From: Deltaproteobacteria bacterium
Lineage (GTDB): Bacteria; Desulfobacterota; Syntrophia; Syntrophales; UBA5619
Assembly: GCA_016935075.1 (NCBI GenBank)
Contig: JAFGRP010000155.1
Span: 1 to 35,322, forward strand
Direction of reading: 5' to 3'
Length of the DNA stretch: 35,322 nt
Shown: positions 485 to 16,371 of the stretch, piece after piece
Numbering within the stretch: position 1 is the stretch's first letter
How the letters are laid out: the number at the start of each line of letters is the position of its first letter
Program-made: the position numbers and the translations under genes
The notes under the pieces: model-generated
What the model was told of the DNA's origin: nothing
The model's input: the letters and a program-made list of their open reading frames with translations, nothing else
Databases searched by the model: none

Positions 485-2536
485 TCACCATCGCTTGCGC
501 AGTCCCACCCACACCGTCGCCGGATCGCCCTGGATGAGGCCGTACGTCCCGGGCGTTTCGTAGTCCCTGTCCAGCAGGTTTCGGACGGAGAGTTCCAGAT
601 CCAGGCCGGGGATGCCGATATCGCGGACGGTGGCACTCATATCGACGAGCCAGACGCCGGGGACCGAGCAGATCTCCGCGCTTCGGGGGAATATCAGATT
701 TCTCGAGGAAAAATAACCGAGCCGTAAAAAGGCGGTCACCCTCTCAACCGGCCGCCATGTCCCGGTCAGGTTGAACAGCGTGTCCGCCCCGCTGTCGTAG
801 GGATAGGTCAGATCGGTATAATGTTTGACCACCGTCCCGTCGGGCCGCACAAAGGAATAATCGTTCCAATGGTATGTCTCGCTCGGGCCGTCATTGTCCA
901 GCAGGGTCAGGTTGGCGGAAAGATCGAGATTCCGGACGGGCGAAAAACGGCCCTCTATCTCCACCCCCTCGATGTTCTGCCGGTTGGGCAGTGAAAGTCC
1001 CGCATAGGGATCCTCCATGATGTGCCTCTCGATGCGGCTGACGAAACCGCAGACACTCAGCGACGCCTGCTGTGAGGGTTTCCATCCGACCTGGAGGTTC
1101 AACGTCTTGATCTCTTCCGTTTCCGGTTCTCCCTCTTCCAGAAGCTGCCTGGCAAAGGGCGTTCGGTAGGCAACCCCATACAGCAGCTTCATCATCCACC
1201 GGGATTCGGGAGACCAGACGGCCCCGAGATTGTAACTCAGATGATCGCCGTACTCGTCATGGGCGTCGTTTCTCAGGCCCAGCCAGAGGTCGACATTGCC
1301 GATCTTCTGGTTGTACTGGCCGAAAACGGACCAGAGTCCGGCGTTGTAATCCTTCTCGGTAAGTCCCGGAACCAGATTCCGGTTTTCCGGTCCCAGGTAA
1401 TCGGGGAGGTAGCCGTTCCAGATCGGGGCGTCATCGATCTCCTTATTTCGATACGAAAGTCCGCCCGTAAAAAGGCCCCTGCCCGACAGAAACGAGCGGT
1501 CATAGATGAGCTCGCCGTACGCGGTGCGTTCCTGCTGCTTCAGGGTTTTGTCGATGATCTCATATTCGGGATTCAACGAGGTATAGGAGCCGGTAAACCG
1601 GAGAGCCGACGATCGATCCAGATTCTTTTTGGCCTCTAACTTGATCAGGCCGAACGGGGCGCTGCGGCCCTCCCGCCAGGAGAAATCCCCTTCCGACCGG
1701 GTCATCACGTAGTTCTTTCTGTAGTCGGAAAACAGGCCGGAGAGGGTAAGCCAGTCTCCGTATGAAAAGCGGCCGGAAACATTGAAGTAACGGGAATCCT
1801 CGGGGGTTTGCCTGCCGTACCGTTCTTCCGGAACGACCGCCGTCTTTTCATCCTTCCAGAAGCGGACGACATTGTAGAAGGTGTCATCCTCCTCGCCCCT
1901 GCGACCGCTCACCGACAGAAACGCGTCCCATAATCCCGCGTCGTGTCCCACATTCGCATAGAAGTCTTGCCGATTTCCCGGGCTGCCGTACAGGATGCCT
2001 GTTTCCGCTCCATCGAGGTCCTTGCCGGTCATGGGCACAAGATTGACGATGCCGGCAAAGGCGTCAGGTCCCCAGAGCACCGAACCCGGGCCGCGGAGGA
2101 TCTCGATGCGCTTGATCGCATTGAGGGATAGTTCATGGTCGAGCGGATGCAGGGACTTGCTGGTATCGGAGCCTGTGGGAACCGTATCATAGAGGAACAG
2201 AACCGAATTGGGGATTCCCCTCAGATAGGGCTGCGTGCCCAATTCCTTCTTGGCCATGTAAAATCCCGGCTCCATCTCGAGGGCATGGCTCACCGTGCGT
2301 ATTCCCTTTTCCTTCATCTCCTCCCTGGTAATGACATGGGCCACGGCCGGCGCCTGCCATGCGCTTTCCTGGCGTCTCGAGGCGATGGAAAGGACATCCA
2401 GATCCTCGCCCAAAAACATCAGCAGGGTGTCGTTCCGTCCGGCGGGCTCCCTGGTTTCCGCCCGAAGCTCTCCGGAGGTGCAAAAAAGGAGCAGGATGAC
2501 AAGGGTCATTAAAGCTATCTTAAAAGATTTATGCAT
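485..2536 (-). CDS. TonB-dependent outer-membrane receptor
   Basis: Energised outer-membrane uptake channel; substrate not readable from sequence. A signal peptide (residues 4-27) precedes a mature start containing EDLDVLSIASRR, a TonB-box-like segment. The plug domain follows, with ITREEMKEKGIRTVSHAL, LRGIPNSVLFLYDTVP, the characteristic IKRIEILRGPGSVLWG and AFAGIVNLV. The remaining ~480 residues alternate aromatic and polar residues as in a 22-strand beta barrel and end in VWVGLRKRW, so the C-terminal residue is Trp rather than the usual Phe. A GTG three bases earlier (2539) is possible; the ATG at 2536 has the better AGG spacing. About 683 aa, normal for the family. It is the last gene of a minus-strand run behind a binding protein, kinase and sigma-54 regulator, which suggests regulated expression for a specific solute. 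A cobalamin, siderophore or other organic ligand are all possible. Confidence 0.9.
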   Translation of the reverse strand: MHKSFKIALMTLVILLLFCTSGELRAETREPAGRNDTLLMFLGEDLDVLSIASRRQESAWQAPAVAHVITREEMKEKGIRTVSHALEMEPGFYMAKKELGTQPYLRGIPNSVLFLYDTVPTGSDTSKSLHPLDHELSLNAIKRIEILRGPGSVLWGPDAFAGIVNLVPMTGKDLDGAETGILYGSPGNRQDFYANVGHDAGLWDAFLSVSGRRGEEDDTFYNVVRFWKDEKTAVVPEERYGRQTPEDSRYFNVSGRFSYGDWLTLSGLFSDYRKNYVMTRSEGDFSWREGRSAPFGLIKLEAKKNLDRSSALRFTGSYTSLNPEYEIIDKTLKQQERTAYGELIYDRSFLSGRGLFTGGLSYRNKEIDDAPIWNGYLPDYLGPENRNLVPGLTEKDYNAGLWSVFGQYNQKIGNVDLWLGLRNDAHDEYGDHLSYNLGAVWSPESRWMMKLLYGVAYRTPFARQLLEEGEPETEEIKTLNLQVGWKPSQQASLSVCGFVSRIERHIMEDPYAGLSLPNRQNIEGVEIEGRFSPVRNLDLSANLTLLDNDGPSETYHWNDYSFVRPDGTVVKHYTDLTYPYDSGADTLFNLTGTWRPVERVTAFLRLGYFSSRNLIFPRSAEICSVPGVWLVDMSATVRDIGIPGLDLELSVRNLLDRDYETPGTYGLIQGDPATVWVGLRKRW

Positions 2537-2576
2537 CACAACCTGTCCCGCATTCCGTTGGGGTAATCTCCCCCCA

Positions 2577-2739
2577 CCCTAACCCTCCCCCGACATGGGG
2601 GAGGGGGTATAAGAGGGAGAGCCGCGCTCACGTATTGCAGCCTAACCCTCCCCCGCCAGGGGGGAGGGGACTTAATTGCAAAACTCTTCCAAATATGTTC
2701 CCCTCCCTCGACGGGAGGGGGTTAGGGAGAGGGTGAACC
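2577..2739. repeat. Cluster of three REP-like palindromes (C-run/G-run)
   Basis: Three short palindromes of the type CCCTCCCCC-loop-GGGGGAGGGG lie at about 2583-2606, 2644-2669 and 2700-2725. The outer ends are inverted relative to each other: CACCCTAACCCTCCCCC at the left, and its reverse-complement-like GGGGGTTAGGGAGAGGGTG at the right. This is the structure of a composite intergenic REP/BIME-type element. It fills most of the gap between the response regulator stop and the TonB receptor start. It may stabilise mRNA ends or uncouple the two genes. Confidence 0.7.
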
Positions 2740-2745
2740 CCGAGG

Positions 2746-4104
2746 CTACTTCTCCGTCTTCTTTGTCTGATTCAACAGAACCCTGAATTTGGCCCTGGTC
2801 AATCCCAGGAACCTGGCCGCTGCCGTCTGGTTGTCTTTGCAGGTTTCAAGCGCCTGTCTGACCATATCCTTTTCGATCTCCTCCAGCGATATGCCGCCGG
2901 GGGGAAGTCGGAAACCGGCATGATCGGTGTTGAGCGGATGGCTGGTCTCGAGAAAAGAGAGGGTCTCGGATGTGATCGTTCCCGTCCCCCGCGCCAGGAT
3001 CATGGCCCTCTCCACGGCGTTGGCCAGCTCTCTGACATTCCCGGGCCAGGCATACTCTTTGAGCACCCGCAGCGCCCCGCTGGAGAACTGTGTCCGGTCG
3101 AGACCGCCCTCCAGCCGGCGCAGGAAATGCCGGGCCAGCAGGATCGCGTCATCGGTGCGTTCCCTGAGGGGCGGAAGCTCGATCGGAAACACGTTGATGC
3201 GGAAGAACAGATCCTCGCGAAACCTCCCCTTTTTCACATTTTCACTGAGATTCTGATTGGTGGCGCAGATAAACCGTATATCGACGGGGATCTCCTCGTT
3301 TCCCCCCACCCGCTGGATCTTTTTTTCCTGGAGGGCCCGCAGCAGCCTGGCCTGGGCCTCGAGGGAAAGGTCGCCGATTTCGTCCAGAAAGAGGGTCCCC
3401 TTGTTGGAATATTCGAACTTTCCCAGACTCTTCTGGATGGCTCCGGTAAAAGAACCTTTTTCATGGCCGAACAGTTCGGATTCGATCAGATTGGGGGATA
3501 TCGCAGCGCAGTTCAGGGGAACAAACCGCTCTTTGCTGCGCGGGCTCGCATTGTGGATATATCTGGCCAGAAGCTCTTTTCCCGTCCCGGATTCACCGCT
3601 TAATCGAACGGCGGCATCGGTTCCCGCTACCGTGGAGGCAAGATCCATGGCTGCGGACATCTTTTTGGAGGCATAAACGATTTCCTCGCTCCCTGCCGCC
3701 TTGCGGATTTCCCTCTTGAGATTCCTGTTCTCGGCCATGATCCGTGACAGGCCGAGCGTCCGTTCAACGGTCAGCAGGATGCGGGCCTCTTCGAACGGTT
3801 TGATAATGTAGTCGACCGCCCCCTGTCGCATGGCTTCCACCGCCGACTCCACCGTGGCATACGCGGTGATAAATACAACCGGGGAGGGAATTTCCATCTC
3901 CATGATCTTTTTCAGAAGATCCATTCCGCCCATCCGGGGCATCTTGATATCCGTGATGATCATGTCGAAAGGTTTGGCGCCGATCATCTCCAGGGCCTCC
4001 AGGCCGTCTCCCGCCTGTTCAACATGATACCCCTTTCTGCTCAGCATGATGGAAAGCAGGTGCCGCATTCTCTCTTCATCGTCAACGATCAGAATATGCG
4101 CCAT
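2746..4104 (-). CDS. NtrC-family sigma-54-dependent response regulator
   Basis: Cytoplasmic transcription activator of sigma-54 promoters, phosphorylated by the kinase encoded just upstream. The receiver domain (1-120) has the acidic pocket DDE, phospho-acceptor Asp52 in TDIKMP, and Lys102 in IKPF. The AAA+ domain (about 140-370) has Walker A GESGTGKE (170-177), the sigma-54-contacting loop as GSFTGA (217-222) instead of the commonest GAFTGA, and Walker B LFLDEIGD. A Fis-type helix-turn-helix occupies the last ~40 residues (AARFLGLTRAKFRVLLNQ). At 452 aa it is full length for the AtoC/ZraR-like group. A palindromic repeat separates it from the kinase gene. Plausible targets are the downstream TonB receptor and the -24/-12 promoter found upstream of gspE; the latter is an inference from this window. 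Confidence 0.93.
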   Translation of the reverse strand: MAHILIVDDEERMRHLLSIMLSRKGYHVEQAGDGLEALEMIGAKPFDMIITDIKMPRMGGMDLLKKIMEMEIPSPVVFITAYATVESAVEAMRQGAVDYIIKPFEEARILLTVERTLGLSRIMAENRNLKREIRKAAGSEEIVYASKKMSAAMDLASTVAGTDAAVRLSGESGTGKELLARYIHNASPRSKERFVPLNCAAISPNLIESELFGHEKGSFTGAIQKSLGKFEYSNKGTLFLDEIGDLSLEAQARLLRALQEKKIQRVGGNEEIPVDIRFICATNQNLSENVKKGRFREDLFFRINVFPIELPPLRERTDDAILLARHFLRRLEGGLDRTQFSSGALRVLKEYAWPGNVRELANAVERAMILARGTGTITSETLSFLETSHPLNTDHAGFRLPPGGISLEEIEKDMVRQALETCKDNQTAAARFLGLTRAKFRVLLNQTKKTEK

Positions 4105-4126
4105 GGCATCCCTCTGTGTCCTGACC

Positions 4127-4197
4127 CGTCATCCCGGTGGAAACCGGGGTCCGGGACGTTTTGAAATCACCGGATACCGGCGTTAGCCGGTAAGACG
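4127..4197. repeat. Palindromic intergenic repeat (nested hairpins) containing the kinase stop codon
   Basis: Left arm 4127-4154 and right arm 4170-4197 are imperfect inverted copies (CGTCnTnCCGG...CCGGnnTCCGG). Each arm also folds on itself (CCGGT-GGAA-ACCGG and CCGGC-GTTA-GCCGG). The layout resembles the dispersed intergenic repeats common in many deltaproteobacterial genomes. The histidine kinase stop codon (TAA on the minus strand, 4185-4183) lies inside the right arm, so the last residues of that protein are encoded by the repeat. Confidence 0.65.
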
Positions 4198-5592
4198 ACC
4201 TTTGTTGCCTCTCTGCGACAACGGTATTTCAATTTTGAACAGGGCACCCCCTTCTATTCGGTTCTCCGCACTGATGGCGCCGCCATGCGCCTTGATTGCC
4301 TGGCAGGCGTATGCGAGCCCCAGGCCGGCGCCCTTTGCGCGCGTGGTGAAAAACGGATTGAAGATCTTGTCGATATTTTCAGGGGCGATTCCTTCTCCAT
4401 CGTCTGCTATCTCTGTGGTCCAGGCATCCGCCAGGCCGGCCGCCGTCACCTGCACCACACATTTACCCCCATTGGCATCAAAGGCGTTTTTGATGACATT
4501 GCCGATGGCACGAATCAGCAGATCGGGATCCACATCGGCATAACAGGGGATGGATGGAATATCAGACCGTATTTCACACGGCATCCCGGTTTTTTGGAGT
4601 TCAAACCGCATTACAATCTCATTGAGCAGGGCGTTCAGATCCGTTTGGCGAAAAGAGGGTGCAACCGGACGGGCAAATGTCAGGAAATCCCCGATCAAGC
4701 GGTTCAGACGCAGGATCTCATCCTCGATATAAAAGACCATGGTGTTGTCTGAGGAGAGTGCAAAATCTTTTTTCAGGACATCCAGTGAGCTCTTGATAAT
4801 GCTGAGGGGATTTTTAAACTCGTGCGCGATCAGCAGGGAGAACTTTCCCATCTCTGCCAGCGTCTTCTGCCGCCTCATCTGTTCCTTGGCTTCCTCAAGG
4901 GATCTCCTGTTCCTCTCCAGGGAATCCAGCATGACATTGAATGCCACTGCAAGCTCTCTGGTTTCGGGAAGCGTTCCCGGCTGCGCCCGTAAATTGCGAT
5001 CTCCCTGAGCCACCCTCCTGGCCGCCCGGGCCAATCCCTTGACCGGGGCCACCAGGGAACGGGAGATGAAATAGAAGATCAGACCTGCCAGGCAGGTCAG
5101 ACCGCCGGCGAGCCAGATAAAGTAGGTGATCATCGTCGCCCAGAGCTGGTCTATGCCCTTCGTGCTGTAGATGATTCGCACCTTTCCGATCAAGCTCTCT
5201 TCCGATCCCTTATGATATTCGAAGGCCTTGCTCTCTTCCCGTGATTCCGTCAGAAAAACAGGCGTTTCCATGACGGGAAACGAGCTGGAAATCGCTTCGG
5301 GTATCCGGATGAGTTCCTGATTATGGCTGTCCAGTATGGCAACCCCTACCACGTCCTTTTCAGACATCAGATTAACGGCCAGTCTCCGCAACATGGGCCG
5401 GTCATCGATCAGTATACCCAATTCTGCGGTGAGTGCAAGATACTTTGCCAGAAATGAGATGTGCTCCTCAAACCGCCTCTGCGTGAACTCGTGCGCAATA
5501 TTCGCCCCCATATAGCCCAGGGTGAACGTCGTTGCACTGATGAGCATAAAGGCCGCAAGCAGGATCCTGACGTGGATGCCCGGATTTTTCAT
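4183..5592 (-). CDS. Membrane sensor histidine kinase (periplasmic sensor, HAMP, HisKA, HATPase)
   Basis: Inner-membrane kinase that should phosphorylate the adjacent NtrC-type regulator. TM1 is at about residues 8-30, a periplasmic sensor region at 31-150, TM2 at about 153-177, then HAMP (178-230), a coiled linker and the H-box LAEMGKFSLLIAHEFKNPLS with phospho-acceptor His257. The ATPase part shows an N-box-like IGNVIKNAFDA, the G1 motif DDGEGI and G2 GAGLGLAYA. At 469 aa it is of normal length. Its ATG overlaps the stop of the upstream binding-protein gene (ATGA), so the two are translationally coupled. This suggests that the binding protein supplies the ligand signal to this kinase. The C-terminus runs into a palindromic repeat. 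Confidence 0.93.
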   Translation of the reverse strand: MKNPGIHVRILLAAFMLISATTFTLGYMGANIAHEFTQRRFEEHISFLAKYLALTAELGILIDDRPMLRRLAVNLMSEKDVVGVAILDSHNQELIRIPEAISSSFPVMETPVFLTESREESKAFEYHKGSEESLIGKVRIIYSTKGIDQLWATMITYFIWLAGGLTCLAGLIFYFISRSLVAPVKGLARAARRVAQGDRNLRAQPGTLPETRELAVAFNVMLDSLERNRRSLEEAKEQMRRQKTLAEMGKFSLLIAHEFKNPLSIIKSSLDVLKKDFALSSDNTMVFYIEDEILRLNRLIGDFLTFARPVAPSFRQTDLNALLNEIVMRFELQKTGMPCEIRSDIPSIPCYADVDPDLLIRAIGNVIKNAFDANGGKCVVQVTAAGLADAWTTEIADDGEGIAPENIDKIFNPFFTTRAKGAGLGLAYACQAIKAHGGAISAENRIEGGALFKIEIPLSQRGNKGRLTG

Positions 5593-6563
5593 GGCCCCGC
5601 CTCTATCAGTGGGAATTTCTTTTCAGGAACGCTGATCCCCAGCTTGTTCATGACCCGAAGGTTCAGCCATGCGTGAAAGACGGGAATCTCTTTTTCACAG
5701 CCCTTTCCCCTCAGCGTGTTGGCTGCCAGCCTGCCGGTCTGTCTTCCGAGTTCCTCGTAATCGAATACAAAAGCCATGGCGGCGCCGCTTTCATAAAAAA
5801 ATCGATTGTAGCCTATAACGGGTATTTTTTTGAATATGGCGTCTTTAATGATGTACTGTACGATGCTTTCCGATATGACCGTTTGATCGGGGATCAGCCA
5901 CACGGCATCGATATTCTCCCAATTCTGTTTCAGAACAACAGGGATATCTTTTCTGGATGACACCTTGAGCGGGACGATTTTCAAGTCAAGAACAGAAGCC
6001 CCCGCAACGGCTTTCATGAAAAACTCGGAATTGTATCGGGGATCGTAGAGGAGGCCGAGCCGTTTGACGGTCCTAAGCCCCTGGTCGATCGTCTCAAGCT
6101 GTTTCTTGGCCGGGATATCGAGGGGGATTCCGCATGCGGTTTCGGTCTGGCCGGATAGGGGGGGGGGATTCAAGACCATGGAATAAAGCCAGGCGGTTTT
6201 CTCCGGCACAGGCCTTTCGGAGGCCAATCTGACGGCCTCGGGACCAACGGCAACGAAGAGATCAAAATTTTCTCCGGATAGATTCTGTATGAGAACCTCC
6301 TGACTTTTGCCCTCGAACTTTTCAAGAGGGAACACCTGGATTTTTGCGCCTGCAGTCTCCGAGAGAACCACACTCATCCCTTCCACAGCCTCAATATAAG
6401 GCCTGATATTCCGGGAGACCAAGATCGCCACCTTCGGTGCGGGTATCTCCTCAGCATGCAGGGCAGCGGCCCCCAGAAAAACCGAACAGAGGACCGTTAG
6501 AAGCAACCGCTCCCAGAAGGGATATGGCATTCCGGGCGTGCTGAAAATAGCGGATATCCTCAT
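5589..6563 (-). CDS. Periplasmic binding protein, ABC_sub_bind (PF04392) type
   Basis: Probable periplasmic solute-binding protein. A hydrophobic leader (LLLTVLCSVFLGAAALHA) is followed by VAILVSRNIRPYIEAVEGM, then VAVGPEAVRLASE, LLYDPRYNSEFFMKAVAG, and a C-terminal IPVIGYNRFFYESGAAMAFVFDYEELGRQTGRLAANTLRG. The last segment is characteristic of PF04392 (compare GAlaSxgpDYxelGrqaA). No ABC permease or ATPase lies nearby; instead the gene overlaps a histidine kinase gene by ATGA, so it is more likely a sensing partner than a transporter subunit. The frame stays open up to an ATG at 6635, but that ATG lies inside a 102-bp palindrome, so a start at 6563 or 6530 (directly before the signal peptide) is preferred. 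Neither has a strong ribosome-binding site. Confidence 0.82.
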   Translation of the reverse strand: MRISAIFSTPGMPYPFWERLLLTVLCSVFLGAAALHAEEIPAPKVAILVSRNIRPYIEAVEGMSVVLSETAGAKIQVFPLEKFEGKSQEVLIQNLSGENFDLFVAVGPEAVRLASERPVPEKTAWLYSMVLNPPPLSGQTETACGIPLDIPAKKQLETIDQGLRTVKRLGLLYDPRYNSEFFMKAVAGASVLDLKIVPLKVSSRKDIPVVLKQNWENIDAVWLIPDQTVISESIVQYIIKDAIFKKIPVIGYNRFFYESGAAMAFVFDYEELGRQTGRLAANTLRGKGCEKEIPVFHAWLNLRVMNKLGISVPEKKFPLIEAGP

Positions 6564-6593
6564 CGCATGCAATCTCAACTTAACTTGCTTAGA

Positions 6594-6695
6594 GACCTTT
6601 GCGTAACTTGGAAATCGGATCCCGGAAGCGCGCATTGGAGATTTTTCGGGTAGAAAAATGTCCAGCGCGCGGAGGGATCACGATTTCCAAAGGTC
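6594..6695. repeat. 102-bp imperfect palindrome, MITE-like
   Basis: The left arm (6594 onwards) and right arm (ending 6695) are inverted copies: GACCTTT...GGAAATCGGATCCC at the left pairs with GGGATCACGATTTCC...AAAGGTC at the right. Further in, GCGCGC pairs with GCGCGC, and GGAGATTTTTC pairs with GAAAAATGTCC around a centre near 6645. A 9-base insertion in the left arm is the main irregularity. The element could form a long hairpin at the 3' end of the secretion operon transcript. It has the look of a miniature inverted-repeat element or a dispersed hairpin repeat. No target-site duplication was recognised. Confidence 0.65.
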
Positions 6696-6764: not shown

Positions 6765-9179
6765 TTACCTCAATGTCGTTAAAGCATTTCCTATCTTTTT
6801 CCTGAACTCTTCGCTGACGGCATCCACATCATCCAGACTGGTAATCACGCGCGGCGTGATCATGATGATGAGTTCCGACTTGGTTGTGCTTTTTGACTCT
6901 GTTCCAAACAACCACCGGAGGAATGGAATCTTTACCAGCCAGGGCACACCCGACGCCGCATCACTCTCTTCGTTGCTGATCAGCCCTCCAATGACGATCG
7001 ACTGATTGTGTTTTACCGTCAATGATGTCGATACCTTTCTCGCGTCGAAGGTATAATAATCTTTACCGGCTACCTTGATCTGGGTACCGACACTGCTGAC
7101 CTCCTGGCTGATGTCCATCGTGACCAGACCGTATTCATTGATATGCGGCGTGACTTCGAGGATGACACCTGTATTCCGGTATTCGACCTGGGTTTCCAGT
7201 ACATTCTCTCCACTGGATACGTAATTGTAGCTCGTGCTGGGTATCGGCACCTCTTTCGTTACGTCAATTTTGGCCTGTTTATTATCGGAGGCAAGAACAC
7301 TGGGGGAGGATATGATATTCAGTTTGCTGTCGTTGGCAAGGGCATGCAGGGCAACCTGCCATTTATGTGACAGACCCAGGGCGTATTGGAGGCCGGAGGC
7401 GCCTATGGTGGCGGCCAGAGAACCGGTATCGGTCCAGTCGTCTTTTTTAAAGGTCCATTCAACGCCCAAATCCGTCCCTTTATCCAGGGAGATCTCAGCG
7501 ATAACCACCTCGATCAGCACCTGGCGCGGGAGGACATCCAGACGCCCAAGAATCTTTTCAACGATCTGATAATCTCCGGGGAGGGCCTCAATAATCAGCG
7601 CGTTTCGTATCTCATCTGTCGTAATTTTGATCTCCCCCCGCAAGGTCGTCGAGGGACCTGTTTCCTGTGCCGCTTTTGCAGCCGGTGCGGTCGATGCTGT
7701 TGGTGCCGCTGAAACCGACGGCGCCGTCGTTGATGCTGCCGGTGTTGCCGGTGCCCTTGAGGGTGCGGCCGAGGTCTTTTTTTCCGTGAAACCTTTGGCG
7801 AACGGATTCGTAGGCACACTTGCCTTCACGGTACCTTTTTTGATTTCTCCTCCTGTGCCAAAAATGGATCTCAAGGTATCGCCCAGTTCCGTGGCCATTC
7901 CGTTTTTAACCGAATAAACATGAATTTGCGGCTGGGCACCTTCACTGGGGATGTCCAGTTGGCTGATTAATGCATCCGCCCGGGCAAAGACGTCAGGACT
8001 TGAACTGACGAGAAGCAGCGCATTCATCCATTTGATGGGAATAAACTTCACATTGTCTTTACTGCCGCCTGCGGGTAGAGACAATGTCTCGCCGAGTGCT
8101 TTAGACACATCCTCGGCATTGGCGTTTTTAAGATTGTAAAACCGATAATTGATCTTCTCGAACACACTGACATCCAACGCCTCCACCAGTTTCAGTGTCT
8201 TGAGGATATTGATCCCCTTGTCAACCACCAGCAGCGTATTAGAGCCCCCTTCCGAGATGATCGTTCCATCGGCTGAAATGAAAGGGGTTATCACCTTTGC
8301 CGCCTCCTGGGCGGCTATGAATTTAAGGGGGATGATCTGGAGGATGATTCGTTCTTCGGGCGGGACATCTTTCTTCTCTCTGACGAGCCGGGAGGCAATC
8401 GGCATTCGCGAAGCATCCTTGATCTTCAATATCCGGTAAACGTTTCCTTCCTTGACGGCCGTCAGGCCGTTCACCTCCAGGGTCTGGTAGAAAATGGGGA
8501 AAACGTCTGCTGTCTTCAGAGGACTGGCCGTGTGAATTGTCACCTTCCCAGCGACGCTCGGATCAATAATGTAGTTGATTTTTAAAAAGTCGGCCATGAC
8601 CCTGATCACGGCATAGAGGTCGGCATCGTCAAAATTGAAGCTGATCTGGCCGGTCTTTTCGGGGAGGTCCTTCTCCGCCAATTTCTCAGACGGTCCGGGA
8701 ACAGGAGTGGTTGGTTCGGTCTTGAGCGCCGGCGGAGCGGCAGAAACGGTTGCAGTTGCAGTGGGAGGAGGGGGCGGGGCTTTGACGACCGGTGTAAGCG
8801 GAATGATGGATTCTTGCTGCCCAGGCAGGGATGTGCTTGACTCCCTTCCCGCCTGTTTCTTCCCCTGCCTCACATAACCCAATGGGGTGGATCTGATTTC
8901 AAACTTCCCCTTCTGATCGACATAGGCCTTCTCTGCCGATGTTTCCGCTGTTCCTGCAGCTCGCACGCCGGCCTTGTCATCTCCTCCCTTTTTCCGGGCA
9001 GCGGCATCTGCTGCCGCCGGTGTTTTCGCTGTTTCGGCAGATTGTATGCCGGTTCCTGTCTCCATTTTGACGCCGCCATCCTTGACTTGGGTTTTCGGTC
9101 CCGCGCAACCCGTAAAGAACGGAACGATAAAAAGCAGCGTGCAAAAAACAATAGCTATACTCTGTTTCATACAGTTCAT
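6765..9179 (-). CDS. gspD: Type II secretion secretin GspD, with N-terminal lipobox
   Basis: Outer-membrane secretin through which folded proteins leave the periplasm. The N-terminus has a hydrophobic segment ending in FFTGC (Cys25), which looks like a lipoprotein signal. An unusually long Ala/Pro/Lys-rich extension follows (about 26-175). Then come N0 (ISFNFDDADLYAVIRVMADF), N1-N3 domains with another Ala/Ser/Thr/Pro-rich insert (about 475-515), and the secretin core with VGGLISNEE, VPWLVKIPFLRWLFG and SELIIMITPRVI. At 804 aa it is long for a GspD. Its start overlaps the gspC stop (ATGA). Residues 89-108 resemble the last residues of GspC (see findings). Alternative start: the Met three codons in. 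Confidence 0.95.
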   Translation of the reverse strand: MNCMKQSIAIVFCTLLFIVPFFTGCAGPKTQVKDGGVKMETGTGIQSAETAKTPAAADAAARKKGGDDKAGVRAAGTAETSAEKAYVDQKGKFEIRSTPLGYVRQGKKQAGRESSTSLPGQQESIIPLTPVVKAPPPPPTATATVSAAPPALKTEPTTPVPGPSEKLAEKDLPEKTGQISFNFDDADLYAVIRVMADFLKINYIIDPSVAGKVTIHTASPLKTADVFPIFYQTLEVNGLTAVKEGNVYRILKIKDASRMPIASRLVREKKDVPPEERIILQIIPLKFIAAQEAAKVITPFISADGTIISEGGSNTLLVVDKGINILKTLKLVEALDVSVFEKINYRFYNLKNANAEDVSKALGETLSLPAGGSKDNVKFIPIKWMNALLLVSSSPDVFARADALISQLDIPSEGAQPQIHVYSVKNGMATELGDTLRSIFGTGGEIKKGTVKASVPTNPFAKGFTEKKTSAAPSRAPATPAASTTAPSVSAAPTASTAPAAKAAQETGPSTTLRGEIKITTDEIRNALIIEALPGDYQIVEKILGRLDVLPRQVLIEVVIAEISLDKGTDLGVEWTFKKDDWTDTGSLAATIGASGLQYALGLSHKWQVALHALANDSKLNIISSPSVLASDNKQAKIDVTKEVPIPSTSYNYVSSGENVLETQVEYRNTGVILEVTPHINEYGLVTMDISQEVSSVGTQIKVAGKDYYTFDARKVSTSLTVKHNQSIVIGGLISNEESDAASGVPWLVKIPFLRWLFGTESKSTTKSELIIMITPRVITSLDDVDAVSEEFRKKIGNALTTLR

Positions 9180-9901
9180 TGTATCCTTCGTTTAATCTGC
9201 CCAAAGGGAGTGTTGACGATTTTGTATTCACCCTCGGGTGCGCTTTTCCCGGCTGCAACAGCGGCTGCAGGCGGCGCCGTACCCGGTTTCTGAGGTGCGG
9301 CGGCTGTTACCGGCGCCGCCGCTGCCGGTCCCGCTGCGACCACCGTAGGCGCTGCTGACGGTTGTGCAACGGTTGTTTTTCTTGCCGGTTTTTTCTCGTC
9401 GTATAAAAGAATTTCGTGCTGATTGGCGCCATCAGCCAGGATTATCCTGTCTTTTCTGATGTCGGCCACGCTGAAATTACCCACGGCATCGCCGACTTTG
9501 ACCCATTTATCCTTGGGTTTATACTTTCCGGCCTCCGGTTTTGTTTCGGGATTGCTGATCAGGGCCTGTTTGCGACCCCCTGCTATAACAACCCCGTACA
9601 GAAAAACCATCTTCTCTGAAATATTAAGTGGCCCAGTTTTGTCTTTTTCGGGAATAGACTCCGTCCTGTTCGAGGAAAAGAGGTTCTTATCCACCACGAT
9701 CCCAAAGGTGGATTCGGGAGGCATTGTCCTTTCAATAATCCCTTTCACAGGCAGGGTCTTCTCCGGACTTTTGCCGGTCTGCAGCTCCGGAATCGCTTCG
9801 TCCCCGTTCAACCAGACATCAAAACTCATTATTCCAAAGAAGACGATCAAAGCCGCCAATGAAACATTAATCAGCCATATTTTTGAAAGTGTCGGGAACA
9901 T
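9176..9901 (-). CDS. gspC: Type II secretion inner-membrane protein GspC-like (HR domain, no PDZ)
   Basis: Likely links the inner-membrane platform to the secretin. One N-terminal TM segment (about 7-29) is followed by a periplasmic region containing FGIVVDKNLFSSNRT, MVFLYGVVIAGGRKQALIS and WVKVGDAVGNFSVADIRKDRIIL, which fits the homology region (HR) of GspC and the related PilP beta domain. No PDZ or coiled-coil domain follows. Instead there is an Ala/Pro-rich linker (about 175-220) and a conserved-looking tail GEYKIVNTPFGQIKRRIQ. Position directly before gspD with a 4-base overlap supports the call. The family is divergent, so the name rests partly on context. Confidence 0.82.
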   Translation of the reverse strand: MFPTLSKIWLINVSLAALIVFFGIMSFDVWLNGDEAIPELQTGKSPEKTLPVKGIIERTMPPESTFGIVVDKNLFSSNRTESIPEKDKTGPLNISEKMVFLYGVVIAGGRKQALISNPETKPEAGKYKPKDKWVKVGDAVGNFSVADIRKDRIILADGANQHEILLYDEKKPARKTTVAQPSAAPTVVAAGPAAAAPVTAAAPQKPGTAPPAAAVAAGKSAPEGEYKIVNTPFGQIKRRIQ

Positions 9902-9911
9902 TCAACATCCT

Positions 9912-10517
9912 TTACTCTTTGACATTTTTCATGATGCCCGAAACCGTGATATCACAACGGACTTGCCCGGGGCCCGACGCGGCCAAAACGCTAATTCCAA
10001 TCCTTTCCACTGTCAAGAAGAATTTTGGAGATGCCTCGATCTTGTAAAGGATATCCTTCAATTGCCTGACGGTCGCACTTATGGTGAATTGGACAGGGAT
10101 GCTGATGTACAGGTCGGAATCCTGTTTCTGAGATTTCAGTATCTGCACACTCTTGATCTCCACACCGCTTTCAAGAGCAATTTCGTTTAAGATGTTCTGG
10201 ATATCCACTGCCGCAAGGGCTGCGGTCTTCCCGGCAAGAAGCCCTGCTTCCGCCCGTTCGAGGGATTTGTTCAGGGAAGCAAGCATTGTCTCAAGCTCAC
10301 CCCGTCCCTGAACGGTCTGCCGGTACTTTGCAACCCTCTTCCTTTGGGCGGCAATGTCCGTTTGGTCACCCTGGATCCCTTCAAAAAAAGGGAACAACCA
10401 GAAGGCAAAACCAAAGAGAAGCAATACAGCGCCGGCTATCAAGAGATATCTTTTCCTTTTATCAATTGCGAGATTCAGACACTCGCCCTTTAATTCTTCC
10501 CAGGAGGGGATTTTCAT
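9912..10517 (-). CDS. gspM: Type II secretion protein GspM-like (PilO-like fold)
   Basis: Inner-membrane platform protein. One TM segment (about residues 20-43, RYLLIAGAVLLLFGFAFWLFPFF) is followed by a periplasmic coiled coil (QRKRVAKYRQTVQGRGELETML...LERAEAGLL). A ferredoxin-like domain comes next (VDIQNILNEIALESGVEIKSVQI, VPVQFTISATVRQLKDILYKIE), as in the GspM/PilO group. At 201 aa the length is typical. Two in-frame ATGs exist (10523, 10517). The AAGG directly abuts the first and has 6-base spacing to the second, so 10517 is chosen. Lies between gspL and gspC, the usual relative place. Confidence 0.85.
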   Translation of the reverse strand: MKIPSWEELKGECLNLAIDKRKRYLLIAGAVLLLFGFAFWLFPFFEGIQGDQTDIAAQRKRVAKYRQTVQGRGELETMLASLNKSLERAEAGLLAGKTAALAAVDIQNILNEIALESGVEIKSVQILKSQKQDSDLYISIPVQFTISATVRQLKDILYKIEASPKFFLTVERIGISVLAASGPGQVRCDITVSGIMKNVKE

Positions 10518-10550
10518 AATCATCCTTAATTTTTTAAACGACCAGGCTTT

Positions 10551-11924
10551 TTACCTGACCTTAAATCCTATCCGAAATCTTTCCTTGCCGTCTTTGCCCT
10601 TTGTGATCGGAGACAGAAAAGCCACATCCTTTAACAGAGGAGATGCCGCAAGAAGAGGAATCAAGGCCGAGGCGGAAGGTGCGTAACCCTCTATTTCCCC
10701 CCCCTTATCGGTAACGGTTAGTCTGTCGAGCCATGCGCCTTCGGGGATTCCTTTGGTCAGATCCAGCATGATACCCAATACCGGAATGTGGCGCCGGCGA
10801 TGCACATTTATGGCATCGATCATATTCCCTAACGCTGTTGATTGTGCCTGCATCTTGTGAATGCCGGCAACCTCGGTGCTGAGCTGTTTGATTTCTCCGG
10901 CAAGCTTGCCGGAAACACGCTTCTGGTGCAGGAGATTGCTCCCTCCCCACACCAGGATCGACAAAATGAAGAGACCGGCCAGAACGGACATCGTATAATA
11001 ACCGATTTTACTCACTTTTTTACGGAGGCCGACAGGCAAGAGATTGATATCCATCGGCGTCTTTTGGATTCCTTTTAAAGCAAGGCCGTACGCCGGCGCC
11101 AGGACATCCGACGGGATTCCCGTTCCGGAAATTTCCACAGGGCGGAGACCGATATCTTCCCTTGCCTTGAGCATTTCAACAACGCTGCCGGAGTCAGGTC
11201 CGCACAATGCAACCTCTAATAGGCCTTGTTCCAGTCCGGGTGATTTCCTGAGCAGTCCCAATTCTTCCTGGACAAGGTGCTCCAGGCCGCTTACCCTTTT
11301 ATCAATTTTTACATGTCTTGAGTAATGCAAAAGCCTTTTTTTGACGAGACTCAGTTCAAGATGTTGATCCCCCAGATACAAAATGGCATAGGCATCCGCA
11401 TTCTGTGTATTGGGTTTGTAAGCAAAGTAGTTGACCAATGCCGTGGAATTGATTTCTATCCCCGAGATTCCCGCACCTAATTTTTTTTCAGGATCCAGGT
11501 ACGGATCGATCAATTCCTTCTTGACGGCTATGAGAAGAACCTTTAATTTATTGGTGTCCTTATCTTCCGCAACGATTTGGCAATCAAAGTAGATATCGCC
11601 AGCCGGAAGGGGGACATATTTCTCCATCTCATAGGTTAAAGTTCCTTTGAGGTTTTCTTTGACGGCTGCAGGCAGTTCAATATACTTAAGTATCGTCAAA
11701 TCCCGCTGAATTCCCAGAAAAATGTCGGCCGATGCCATTCGGTGTTCCCTTAAAAATTCATTGACATGTTTCCTGATTTCCTCTGTATTTTCCTCAGGAT
11801 TCCCCTTTGCAAGGGGATATATGGCGTGGGCTGCCAGGCAAAGCCCTTTGAACGATCTTTTCAGGCACGCCAGTGAAACATGGTCGCTCTCAATGTATAT
11901 GCCGACACTTGCCTGGATGTACAA
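10551..11924 (-). CDS. gspL: Type II secretion protein GspL-like (PilM-like plus PilN-like fusion)
   Basis: Couples the cytoplasmic ATPase GspE to the membrane platform. Residues 1-290 form an actin-like cytoplasmic domain: VGIYIESDHVSLACLKR at the start, then FLGIQRDLTILKYIELPAA, LTYEMEKYVPLP, and AILYLGDQHLELSLVKKRLL. One TM segment (about 308-328) is followed by a PilN-like periplasmic part (MDAINVHRRRHIPVLGIMLDLTKGIPEGAWLDRLTV). In type IV pili these two halves are separate proteins (PilM, PilN); in GspL they are fused, as here. The start is TTG: the frame has TTG at 11930 and 11924, and GGAGG stands right before the first and 6 bases before the second, so 11924 is preferred (about 457 aa). 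Confidence 0.88.
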   Translation of the reverse strand: MYIQASVGIYIESDHVSLACLKRSFKGLCLAAHAIYPLAKGNPEENTEEIRKHVNEFLREHRMASADIFLGIQRDLTILKYIELPAAVKENLKGTLTYEMEKYVPLPAGDIYFDCQIVAEDKDTNKLKVLLIAVKKELIDPYLDPEKKLGAGISGIEINSTALVNYFAYKPNTQNADAYAILYLGDQHLELSLVKKRLLHYSRHVKIDKRVSGLEHLVQEELGLLRKSPGLEQGLLEVALCGPDSGSVVEMLKAREDIGLRPVEISGTGIPSDVLAPAYGLALKGIQKTPMDINLLPVGLRKKVSKIGYYTMSVLAGLFILSILVWGGSNLLHQKRVSGKLAGEIKQLSTEVAGIHKMQAQSTALGNMIDAINVHRRRHIPVLGIMLDLTKGIPEGAWLDRLTVTDKGGEIEGYAPSASALIPLLAASPLLKDVAFLSPITKGKDGKERFRIGFKVR

Positions 11925-11976
11925 AGCCAACCTCCATCAATGAATTTGCCGGGTCAAACGTTGCCGGACATCTCGG

Positions 11977-13014
11977 TCACGATCGGTACTCCAGACCGTC
12001 GATCCACTGAATAATCTCATACCCTTTTGTAAGCGTTTTATCAATTTTAACGACGGCCTGCACGCCCTGCCGGGTCCGGCTGTCCTTGAGCATTCCCACC
12101 GATTTGATCGTGTAATAGGGGGATAGGCTGAACGTGATGTATGGCCAGATGGCCGCGTATTTGTCGGATCCGACAATGCGTTGCACATCGGAAAATGACC
12201 GGAAATCCTTTTTTTCTCGATATTTCCTAATGTCAAGCACAACATCCTCAGTCATGAGCGGAAAGGCGCGCAGCATTTGCGGCGGTGCGGCATTGATGTT
12301 TATCCTGTTAAAATCAAACCCCGCTTTTTGCCGGCTGTCGCGTTCCGGTCTTTGGTAATCGCGTTCCGATCCCGTTTCCTGATCCTGATAAACGGTGACC
12401 ATGTCCTTAAGCCCGCCATAGAAAATCTCGGAAGTTACACCCCTGACCAGGAGCAGTTCCCCTATCGATGTAAAATCGCCGTTTTTACATGGGTAAGGTT
12501 TGGGAAGGGAAAGGTAATACTCATTTTCAGCGCCATTCGCACGGTAAAAGTGGTCTTTGTCGCGCCAATCCATAATGGAATCGACGATGATATTTTTATC
12601 GGCATCGGCAATTTCAAAATGGTTCAGCATCATCTTCAGCAGGAATTCTCCGGCCCTGTTGAGGTTAACCTTTCCGCTTTCGTTTTCACTTAACACTTTG
12701 AATTGACCATCCCCGTATGGAACTGCGGGAATGTCGGTATTGATTCTCAACCGGATGTCCTCCTGTTCCTCTTCGACATCGGCGGCATTCACCTTCAGGG
12801 GGACAAACTCATTGACGACCAATTCCTCGATGGCCCAAAACAGTCCGGACACCGCAATGTAATACGTCTGCGTCTCCTCCTTGAAGTTGCGGGTGATATT
12901 TGCCTCTGTTCTTATGGCATAGCAAAACTCGCCTGCGATGACCGTGAGGAGCGCCATGACCCACAGCACAATAAACAGCGCAATACCACGCTCGTTCTTA
13001 AGAATGCGTTTCAT
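11977..13014 (-). CDS. gspK: Type II secretion minor pseudopilin GspK
   Basis: Large minor pseudopilin that tips the pseudopilus with GspI and GspJ. The prepilin leader MKRILKNERG is cut before IALFIVLWVMALLTVIAGEF; as usual for GspK the fifth mature residue is not Glu. The globular part carries KVNLNRAGEFLLKMMLNHF, VDSIMDWRDKD, and a helix-hairpin-helix-like region (FNRININAAPPQMLRAFPLMTEDVVLDIRKYREKKDFRSFSD shortened here to its sense: an NINxAPxxxLxAxP pattern, typical of GspK). Also seen is FTSIGELLLVRGVTSEIF. At 345 aa it is of normal length. It follows gspJ by about 14 bases. Confidence 0.95.
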   Translation of the reverse strand: MKRILKNERGIALFIVLWVMALLTVIAGEFCYAIRTEANITRNFKEETQTYYIAVSGLFWAIEELVVNEFVPLKVNAADVEEEQEDIRLRINTDIPAVPYGDGQFKVLSENESGKVNLNRAGEFLLKMMLNHFEIADADKNIIVDSIMDWRDKDHFYRANGAENEYYLSLPKPYPCKNGDFTSIGELLLVRGVTSEIFYGGLKDMVTVYQDQETGSERDYQRPERDSRQKAGFDFNRININAAPPQMLRAFPLMTEDVVLDIRKYREKKDFRSFSDVQRIVGSDKYAAIWPYITFSLSPYYTIKSVGMLKDSRTRQGVQAVVKIDKTLTKGYEIIQWIDGLEYRS

Positions 13015-13028
13015 AAGGGCACTACCCT

Positions 13029-13658
13029 TTACTCCCCTGCGGCTGCAATCACATATAGGGGGGTCTTTTTGTCATTTTCCTCGAGCGTAATCCGGATCGC
13101 CCGAGGGACCCCTTTTTCGACCGCCGGATCCCAGCTTTTCTGCCAGGGGGATGTTTCTTCATCCGGCCGGATTTTCAGGTATTCAAACACGATGCTTTTT
13201 ATCCCGGAAAGCAATTCAGAAAAATCGTTTTCGTCCGGTTTACCTGCACCGATCTTTTTGTCGAGTAATGCAAGATTTTTCTCGTAAAATACAAGATTCT
13301 CCTTGTCGTTGGTCTTGTCCTGCTTTACGGTATATTGAACATAAACCAGGCCGAACCGGTTTCCTGGTGCCATGGGAATATGGGACACGAACGCGATGGA
13401 TTTGTTGTCGCCCTTTAAGGGGACCAGTTGTTGATCTTTGCCCCACACCTCACTTGTACAGGTTGATGCCAGCTGGCGCTTGATCAGCTCCAGCACAATG
13501 CGCTGCTTCTGGCGAATGTCCACATCCTTTTCGCCTTTCTCCCATGCCCGTATGCCGATTCTCAAGGCGCCGAATATGATCACCACGATCACCGCCGTTA
13601 TCGTGGTCGCAATCATTAATTCAAGCAGGGTAAAACCTTTACCGTGACCGTTCAACAT
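13029..13658 (-). CDS. gspJ: Type II secretion minor pseudopilin GspJ
   Basis: Minor pseudopilin of the tip complex. The prepilin signal GKGFTLLELMIATTITAV has the processing Gly, mature Phe1 and Glu5. Behind it are GALRIGIRAWEKGEKDVDIRQKQRIVLELIKRQLAS in pieces and a beta-rich C-terminal part ending with IRITLEENDKKTPLYVIAAA. The position between gspI and gspK and the length of 209 aa fit GspJ. Processing by a prepilin peptidase (GspO) is required; that gene is not in the window. Confidence 0.93.
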   Translation of the reverse strand: MLNGHGKGFTLLELMIATTITAVIVVIIFGALRIGIRAWEKGEKDVDIRQKQRIVLELIKRQLASTCTSEVWGKDQQLVPLKGDNKSIAFVSHIPMAPGNRFGLVYVQYTVKQDKTNDKENLVFYEKNLALLDKKIGAGKPDENDFSELLSGIKSIVFEYLKIRPDEETSPWQKSWDPAVEKGVPRAIRITLEENDKKTPLYVIAAAGE

Positions 13659-13699
13659 TTACTTTTACTCTGCGGGACTTTCCGGATTTAATGATCGTG

Positions 13700-13722
13700 A
13701 CATCTGAAATTTTATCAGATGT
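13700..13722. repeat. Perfect 8-bp inverted repeat between gspI and gspJ
   Basis: ACATCTGA (13700-13707) and TCAGATGT (13715-13722) are separated by 7 A/T-rich bases. The hairpin overlaps the gspI stop codon and lies in the 56-base gap before gspI on the minus-strand message, after gspJ has been read. There is no T-run, so it may be an mRNA processing or stability element rather than a terminator. Confidence 0.4.
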
Positions 13723-14110
13723 TATCCTTTCCCGGCCTGACCAGCTTTATCGCGCTGATCGCAAAATGTTTTTCATGCCCGCCCGCATCCCAGATGACAT
13801 CCACGTTGATATTGAAAGCGCGGAAGGGTAATTTGACATCGTTTGCTTCCTTGATATCCAGATGCAAGGCTTCCGCCCTCCATCTGAAACCATCGTCAAA
13901 TTTACCATCAATAACCCCCTCGGTTAGTTCTTTGGCCAGGAGGATCTCATCCATCTTCTCCCTTGCATGAAATATGCCGCGGGTATACTCGTCCGACAAT
14001 TTACTGGATTTCAGGCCGCCGGAGAAGAGTTGTAATATGATAACCAGAGAGATGGCGAGTATGGATATGGCGACAAGGGTCTCTATGAGTGTGAAGCCTT
14101 TTTTCCCCAC
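13715..14110 (-). CDS. gspI: Type II secretion minor pseudopilin GspI
   Basis: Small minor pseudopilin that nucleates the tip complex. The leader MGKKG is followed by FTLIETLVAISILAISLVIILQLF with Glu5, then the typical YTRGIFHAREKMDEILLAKEL. The C-terminal part (FNINVDVIWDAGGHEKHFAISAIKL) matches the expected WxxGGxxxxxxLxTxK pattern of GspI. The start codon is GTG at 14110, which shares one base with the gspH stop (TAGTG), so the genes are coupled. At 131 aa it is of normal length. Confidence 0.94.
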   Translation of the reverse strand: MGKKGFTLIETLVAISILAISLVIILQLFSGGLKSSKLSDEYTRGIFHAREKMDEILLAKELTEGVIDGKFDDGFRWRAEALHLDIKEANDVKLPFRAFNINVDVIWDAGGHEKHFAISAIKLVRPGKDNI

Positions 14111-14673
14111 TAACCCGTTACCTCTAATAGCTGCACAGTGCCGGTGATAAAATCGACATTTATTTTGTACTGTCTGCCCCGCTCATTGGCCACGGTTATC
14201 TCGCCCCCGCTGCTGCCTCCGCTGGGATAAAAAAAGATACGAAATAAACCCGAATTAAAATCGCCTTCTCTTGATACCCCTTTTGCAAGTTTAACCCCGT
14301 CGGGAAGCGTGTAAGTCTTGACGTCACCCGGCTGTTCTTTTTCACTATCCGGCGGATCTGCCGGCGCCCGGTCAAACGACGCCCGGTTGCTGATCTGAAA
14401 ATCCTCCCGATCCAGTGGGGAGTTGGCGGCATTGGCAAGGATCAGTCTGTTCTGATCGAAGTCAAACAGCGCTACATAGGTTGTCTTTCCAGACGCGGCG
14501 TTACTTCTGACATATCTCAGGGATGCCGAAATTTTTTGAGAAGCGGTTTTCAGATCCAGATTGCCCATGGGTCCCGCCAGCCTCGGGACCACGACGGCAG
14601 ACATGAGGCTGATGATGATCAATACAACAATCAGTTCAAGAAGCGTAACGCCTCTGCGGTTCCCCTTGTGCAT
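14110..14673 (-). CDS. gspH: Type II secretion minor pseudopilin GspH
   Basis: Pseudopilin with prepilin signal RRGVTLLELIVVLIIISLMSA; mature residue 1 is Val and residue 5 Glu. The rest (LRYVRSNAASGKTTYVALFD, IFFYPSGGSSGGEITVAN) agrees with GspH, whose C-terminal domain usually has the FxPdGxSxGGxI pattern seen here. The frame stays open upstream to 14883, but that stretch lies inside gspG in another frame. The ATG at 14673, ten codons before the hydrophobic stretch, is the sensible start (187 aa). It begins 20 bases after the gspG stop. Confidence 0.92.
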   Translation of the reverse strand: MHKGNRRGVTLLELIVVLIIISLMSAVVVPRLAGPMGNLDLKTASQKISASLRYVRSNAASGKTTYVALFDFDQNRLILANAANSPLDREDFQISNRASFDRAPADPPDSEKEQPGDVKTYTLPDGVKLAKGVSREGDFNSGLFRIFFYPSGGSSGGEITVANERGRQYKINVDFITGTVQLLEVTG

Positions 14674-14692
14674 GAAAAACAGCACTTTGGGA

Positions 14693-15124
14693 TCATTGTC
14701 CGATATTGGTCCAGCTTTCAATATCTGTGTCCTCGCCTTCACCTCCGGGACTTCCGTCAGCTCCCAGTGCGACAATGTCATAGTCTCCATGCTTGCCCGG
14801 AGATTCATATACGTATGGTTTTCCCCAAGGGTCCAGAGGCACATCCTTCGGAAGATAGGGGCCATCCCACTTTTCCACGCCATCCGGTTTCACCCGGAGC
14901 GCCTGCAGCCCCTGCTGCGTGGTCGGATATTTGCCTACGTCGAGCCTGTATGTATCCAGGGCCGTCTCAAACATCGATATCTGGGCCTTTGCGGCTTTTT
15001 GCTTGGACGTTCCCACCTTCCCGAACATCCGAGGGCCCACCATGGCGGCCAGAAGTCCCAAAATAACCATGACAATCAAAAGTTCAATCAGGGTGAAACC
15101 TTCTTCTCCTCTAAGAATTTTCAT
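14693..15124 (-). CDS. gspG: Type II secretion major pseudopilin GspG
   Basis: Main subunit of the periplasmic pseudopilus. The leader MKILRGEEG precedes FTLIELLIVMVILGLLAAMV. The body has the family hallmarks AKAQISMFETALDTYRLDVGKYPTTQQGL in parts, WDGPYLPKDVPLDPWGKPYVY and the C-terminal calcium-site loop around DYDIVALGADGSPGGEGEDTDI. The start at 15124 is chosen because GAGAGGAG lies about 10 bases upstream and the leader is then of normal length; the frame is open to 15157, which would overlap gspF. About 143 aa. Confidence 0.96.
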   Translation of the reverse strand: MKILRGEEGFTLIELLIVMVILGLLAAMVGPRMFGKVGTSKQKAAKAQISMFETALDTYRLDVGKYPTTQQGLQALRVKPDGVEKWDGPYLPKDVPLDPWGKPYVYESPGKHGDYDIVALGADGSPGGEGEDTDIESWTNIGQ

Positions 15125-15140
15125 GGACAACACGCTCCTC

Positions 15141-16370: not shown

Positions 16371-16371
16371 T

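Follow-up and report, generated by a model that had tools for sequence, protein, structure and literature searches.

A short motif common to the GspC C-terminus and the GspD N-terminal extension of a type II secretion system in Desulfobacterota

Little is understood of how the inner-membrane platform and the outer-membrane secretin of type II secretion systems (T2SSs) are attached to each other and to the cell wall, and the arrangement differs between bacteria. In the solved T2SSs, the HR domain of GspC binds the N0 domain of the secretin GspD (PMC3169554). Wall attachment has been described for OutB/GspB, the C-terminal extension of which, behind its HR domain, cross-links to peptidoglycan in vivo, and for Legionella LspD, in which a SPOR domain ahead of N0 has this role (PMC9239104). 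In this study, a 19-residue motif was analyzed that is present both at the end of GspC and ahead of N0 in GspD, the two proteins being encoded on a 35,322-nucleotide stretch of DNA (the window) from a Deltaproteobacteria bacterium (assembly GCA_016935075.1, contig JAFGRP010000155.1, positions 1 to 35,322 of the forward strand).

Similar to Dickeya OutB/GspB, an inner-membrane T2SS protein of which the HR domain binds the secretin N0 and which ends in a short charged tail behind HR (PMC9239104), the window GspC carries a short charged tail behind its HR domain. However, the tail here is on GspC and not on GspB, and the OutB tail is a polyampholyte with neither a defined hairpin motif nor a repeat in the secretin; moreover, peptidoglycan binding of OutB is known from cross-linking, while the GspC/GspD motif is known from sequence and models. 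The window GspD is similar to LspD with its SPOR domain and PilQ with its AMIN domains in having an extra module ahead of N0, which is used for wall attachment in those systems. SPOR and AMIN, though, are folded domains of known families, and a Pfam scan of the window GspC and GspD found no SPOR, AMIN, PG_binding_1 or other known peptidoglycan-binding domain in either protein. A C-terminal PDZ or coiled-coil domain is frequent in GspC proteins, but not universal. Neither was found by Pfam in the window GspC. Where other forms have a PDZ or helical domain at this end, following HR and a second linker (PMC3169554), the model of the window protein has only a linker predicted to be disordered and a predicted hairpin of 19 residues.

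The motif in GspC, GspD and their orthologues

The window gspC (9176-9901, minus strand) encodes a transmembrane helix, an HR domain (residues ~93-168), an Ala/Pro-rich linker of about 54 residues and the motif. The linker between HR and motif (residues 171-222; 9236-9391, minus strand) was predicted to be mostly disordered, with a predicted local distance difference test (pLDDT) score of 49-63, and the motif, EGEYKIVNTPFGQIKRRIQ (residues 223-241; 9179-9235, minus strand), forms the very end of the protein. The adjacent gspD (6765-9179, minus strand), the start codon of which overlaps the gspC stop codon (ATGA), encodes a lipoprotein signal, a linker, the second motif copy, KGKFEIRSTPLGYVRQGKK (residues 90-108; 8856-8912, minus strand), a Pro-rich linker (residues 109-180; 8638-8855, minus strand) predicted to be disordered to about residue 175, the N0 domain (residues 181-250), N1 and further N domains, and the secretin barrel. 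A sequence-only reading of this DNA had placed the two peptides at the same residues and had counted five identities and several conservative pairs between them, and checking of the sequences and ungapped comparison of EGEYKIVNTPFGQIKRRIQ with KGKFEIRSTPLGYVRQGKK bore this out: the identities are G, I, T, P and G, accompanied by Y/F, F/L, I/V, K/R and N/S pairs, and the common pattern of the GspC and GspD motif is roughly [YF]-x-[IV]-x-x-T-P-[FL]-G-x-[IV]-K-[RK]. The BLOSUM62 score of the window pair, 33, was reached once when the GspD extension was shuffled 5,000 times. The case made by the window sequence alone was therefore suggestive, while it is the orthologues that make the shared motif decisive.

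Both motifs were retained in three close relatives (L023/G004, L024/G015 and L025), in which every copy reads TPFG, so that the GspC and GspD cores look more alike there than in the window, where GspD has TPLG. The GspC and GspD copies are AGEYIIVNTPFGPTKRRVQ and KGKFEISSTPFGYVKRDKK in one relative, APEYRIINTPFGPVKQRIQ and TGRFEISPTPFGYVKRERK in another, and SGEFKIIKTPFGTIKRRIE in GspC with NGRFEIKTTPFGSMKRAVK and KGQFEITSTPFGYVKRAIK in GspD of L025. Among four close orthologues, the motif was 63-70% identical, vs. 45-50% for the flanking linkers, and 29 and 33 synonymous codon differences were counted under identical motif residues, indicating that it is the protein sequence that is kept. The conservation of both copies, by which the sequence-only reading had proposed to judge its suggestion, was seen in Syntrophales and in several other families of Desulfobacterota.

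Hidden Markov models (HMMs) built from one protein were then searched against the other among 1,338 open reading frames (ORFs). The HMM from 14 GspD copies only matched most of the 16 GspC tails at E values of 2e-7 to 7e-3, the other two having 0.015 and 0.15, and ranked all 16 above every unrelated ORF. The reciprocal HMM from the 16 GspC tails only recovered most of the GspD copies, with E values from 1e-9 down to chance level, the TPLG copy of the window being among the weakest (E 1.3). The full GspC profile also matched three GspD proteins (E 5e-5 to 5e-4). The orthologues, the reciprocal profiles and the shuffles together rule out that the two motifs resemble each other by chance. The T, P and G of the motif are nearly invariant across the copies, while the residue after the Gly is aromatic in 11/14 GspD copies vs. 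1/16 GspC copies; as this residue differs by position, the two copies are old and separately maintained, not freshly copied. Fungal amyloid signalling motifs, which are about 20 residues long, likewise occur both at the N-terminal end of one protein and at the C-terminal end of the protein encoded by a neighbouring gene, but these are a different motif that acts in cytoplasmic cell-death signalling, so that the likeness is an analogy only and there is no evidence of amyloid here.

To place the carriers within the phylum, a sample was drawn from GspC profile and motif-profile searches, and 37 GspD sequences were put on a tree. The motif was confined to one clade of 24 systems (support 100/99), in which 19 carry it, 10 in both proteins, six in GspC only and three in GspD only, and five carry neither copy; none of the 13 sampled systems in the sister group has it. 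As the motif itself was used in part to choose the sample, 19/24 is not an estimate of prevalence. The distribution, as read from these sequences, would fit one origin and several losses. One further genome, G548 (L112), was omitted from the tree and its counts and is counted as a carrier in the GspA/GspB tally given below; its GspC motif lies in a frame (L112:1199-1408, plus strand) that overlaps the end of the GspC frame (L112:664-1332, plus strand), probably through a frameshift that is either real or an assembly error. In L029, gspC and gspD share a reading frame and are separated by one TAG and one codon (L029:1486-1491, minus strand). The motif-free family f40 (L036, L040, L043 and L048) has another conserved tail near the GspC end, PDPG[VL]WRGRR or PDPSILRGRR, and the GspC tails of L050 and L052 read DP[SG]VMRGVR; judging from such tails, GspC C-termini in general may carry clade-specific docking motifs.

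Predicted structure and restriction to GspC and GspD

Single-chain AlphaFold models of the window GspC and GspD were made with orthologue alignments. Both motif copies were modelled as two-stranded beta-hairpins of matching register that turn at two residues, Pro-Phe in GspC and Pro-Leu in GspD. The GspC strands (residues 226-231 and 234-239) had block-mean pLDDT of 85 and 79, and the GspD strands (residues 93-98 and 101-106) about 70 and 67, while the linkers in both models were mostly at pLDDT 31-57. The predicted template modelling (pTM) scores were 0.39 for GspC and 0.34 for GspD, about what is expected from the folded domains alone, and by this measure only, the models give no sign that either hairpin docks in cis on its own HR or N0 domain.

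Whole-genome searches with the motif profile were run on ten genomes to E ≤ 10, and wider searches to E ≤ 0.02 and E ≤ 0.001. In the ten genomes, strong matches were found in GspC and GspD only, and all others had E ≥ 0.09; in the wider searches, the best matches outside these two proteins had E values of 0.0019 (phylum) and 5e-4 (class, in G043). Five places outside GspC and GspD that were read (L087, L092, L097, L099 and L104) either encode unrelated proteins or are frames in which no gene is recognisable, and were treated as chance matches; L099 and L104 look like molybdopterin oxidoreductases. The exception was G526, in which a 108-residue ORF between gspC and gspD (L102:1551-1877, plus strand) encodes a signal peptide and two motif copies, EGMMTTPFGEIRR and CEIVQTPFGPVKR; its ATG overlaps the gspC stop codon and its stop codon overlaps the gspD ATG (ATGA at both ends), it has no Pfam match, and it brings the copies in this genome to four. 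The GspD of L025 (L025:5738-8191, plus strand) has the unit of linker plus motif in tandem, with two motif copies about 78 residues apart, while that of L023 has a repeated AEGGVKAAETAEKPVEK-like unit and no second motif. Among PDB sequences nothing convincing was found (best E 0.16). No description of a TPFG string with secretins, or of a short linear motif in GspC or GspD, was found in the open-access literature, consistent with the statement of the sequence-only reading that it knew of none.

Possible roles of the shared motif

What best accounts for these results, at somewhat less than an even chance, is that the motif is a tethered docking hairpin that can be carried by either partner of the GspC-HR/GspD-N0 pair and that docks on a ligand shared by the copies and distinct from GspC and GspD; peptidoglycan or a protein bound to the wall is the likely ligand. 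We infer that the GspC HR would bind the GspD N0 in this T2SS as in the solved ones, so that the motif would be a hairpin module at the joint linking the inner- and outer-membrane halves. The GspC copy has 39-77 residues of linker behind HR, and the GspD copy lies about 70-105 residues ahead of N0 and 40-90 behind the lipid-anchored Cys, on tethers that are predicted to be disordered. With the HR-N0 joint and tethers of such lengths, the hairpins of both chains would reach one periplasmic zone and could do the same job there, which would explain why the motif occurs on either chain. For the common ligand that we infer, peptidoglycan or a wall-bound protein is the probable candidate, as the known T2SS wall anchors occupy exactly these two positions, and the hairpin would then hold the HR-N0 joint to this ligand; that the ligand is peptidoglycan itself is perhaps rather doubtful. 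A single copy would be enough for some species, while three or four are present in others; copies that are redundant toward one ligand would predict systems with the motif in only one of the two proteins, as in nine of the 19 carriers. The sequence-only reading had proposed a docking peptide for a partner common to both proteins, each other included. The motif is a module conserved in both linkers and is best read as a docking peptide; a strict mutual binding of the GspC and GspD motifs has become less likely, given the nine genomes with only one of the two copies.

Several points weigh against a docking hairpin for the wall. The motif is unlike any known peptidoglycan-binding domain, and as the hairpin is defined and its TP-G turn invariant, a protein ligand is suggested as much as a polymer. 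The apparent lack of cis docking is judged from pTM values only. The occurrence of GspA and GspB, on the other hand, agrees with a wall ligand, though only as a weak trend. GspB was above cut-off in 3/19 motif carriers vs. 8/17 non-carriers (Fisher p 0.07, with related and incomplete genomes and possibly more than one T2SS per genome), and GspA followed it closely, being found in the same three carriers, with a weak extra match in G526; neither was above cut-off in the genome of the window. GspA and GspB thus tend to be rarer among carriers, but the carriers G386, G562 and G807 also have GspA/GspB, and both the motif and GspA/GspB are missing from G240 and G384. The motif-free clade members G286, G327 and G420 all have both GspA and GspB, the GspA of G286 with a clear PG_binding_1 domain.

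The hairpins might instead dock inside the machine, both copies sharing a groove of the GspC HR, of GspD N0-N3 or of the ferredoxin-like periplasmic domains of GspL/GspM and adding beta-strands to it, perhaps in turn during assembly or gating. The motif is found only in this machine, HR is a small beta-sandwich with open edges, and modelling of XpsCLM sets a flexible region of GspC against GspL/GspM (PMC11981180). However, that region of XpsC was described as lying between HR and the GspL/M-binding site (PMC11981180), which is no evidence for the far C-terminus, and the single-chain models show no sign of docking on HR or N0/N1; we regard docking within the machine as rather unlikely. A stacking of the hairpins on one another, edge to edge, in GspC-GspC, GspC-GspD or GspD-GspD pairs, into a larger sheet or ring that locks the membrane halves, is more improbable still. 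It would account for the sharing of a motif by two neighbouring proteins, for the two open edges of a two-stranded hairpin, for the many copies per machine, and for the G526 ORF, which has little besides two motif copies and would be a bridging staple. But the six GspC-only and three GspD-only genomes exclude an obligatory GspC-GspD handshake, and such pairing is therefore at most optional; the position-dependent residue after the Gly is unlike a symmetric self-pairing surface, and the KRRK-rich second strands would be expected to repel each other.

That the 3′ end of gspC was copied over the gspC/gspD boundary and persists as a harmless linker, with no shared function, is very improbable. The two genes overlap or abut, and duplication at this boundary is ongoing, as seen from the repeated linker that holds the L025 GspD copies and from the two-copy insert ORF of G526, so that the second copy may well have originated in this way. 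As an account of its persistence, though, duplication is contradicted by the long conservation over many families, with T, P and G nearly invariant and synonymous changes beneath them amid fast-drifting linkers, and by the distinct residues after the Gly, which mark the copies as old and separately constrained.

The new part, undescribed in the open-access literature, is thus a putative docking module common to GspC and GspD of the T2SS. There is about an even chance that it represents an undescribed periplasmic docking code, in which one hairpin on both halves of the T2SS addresses one receptor and can be exchanged between chains, sometimes with a secreted adaptor of motif copies, as in G526. 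A 19-residue peptide on both halves is a precise handle, short enough to be synthesised, used as bait or deleted, and the related species that have lost it from one of the chains offer a natural experiment. Short linear motifs, which mostly escape notice in linkers of low complexity, may organise machines that span the envelope.

The T2SS cluster of the window and its surroundings

The machine is an ordinary T2SS. Its genes form a cluster on a single strand in the order gspE-F-G-H-I-J-K-L-M-C-D, with gspC adjoining gspD and gspM; the genes for GspM, GspL (a PilM/PilN fusion), K, J, I, H, G, F and E occupy 9912-17889 (minus strand). GspD matched TIGR02517 with 450 bits (cut-off 351) as well as PF21305, PF03958 and PF00263, its N0, N1 and secretin domains all being above curated cut-offs. 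Its N0 and N1 resemble those of solved secretins, N0 matching XcpQ (4e9j_B) with a Z of 13.7 and a root-mean-square deviation of 0.9 over 77 residues. A lipobox, FTGC, was read at GspD residues 22-25 (Cys25), and lipobox-like Cys motifs were read in most GspD orthologues; judged by these, the window GspD is probably an N-terminally lipidated secretin (a liposecretin, HxcQ-like).

GspC matched no Pfam family, and its match to the deltaproteobacterial NCBIfam model GspC_delta (E 1.9e-6, 27.9 bits) was under the cut-off of 150. Its HR region as modelled by AlphaFold matched the GspC HR of enterotoxigenic Escherichia coli (3oss_C; probability 1.00, TM-score 0.78 by target length) and also the PulC HR (6hcg_e), and the single transmembrane helix ahead of HR was read from the sequence.

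On the 3′ side of gspD (485-6635, minus strand), a gene for an ABC-type substrate-binding protein and a histidine-kinase-like gene lie immediately downstream, followed by those for a sigma-54 response regulator (2746-4104) and a TonB-dependent receptor plug protein (485-2539). The ABC-type substrate-binding and histidine-kinase-like genes adjoin gspD in L025 too.
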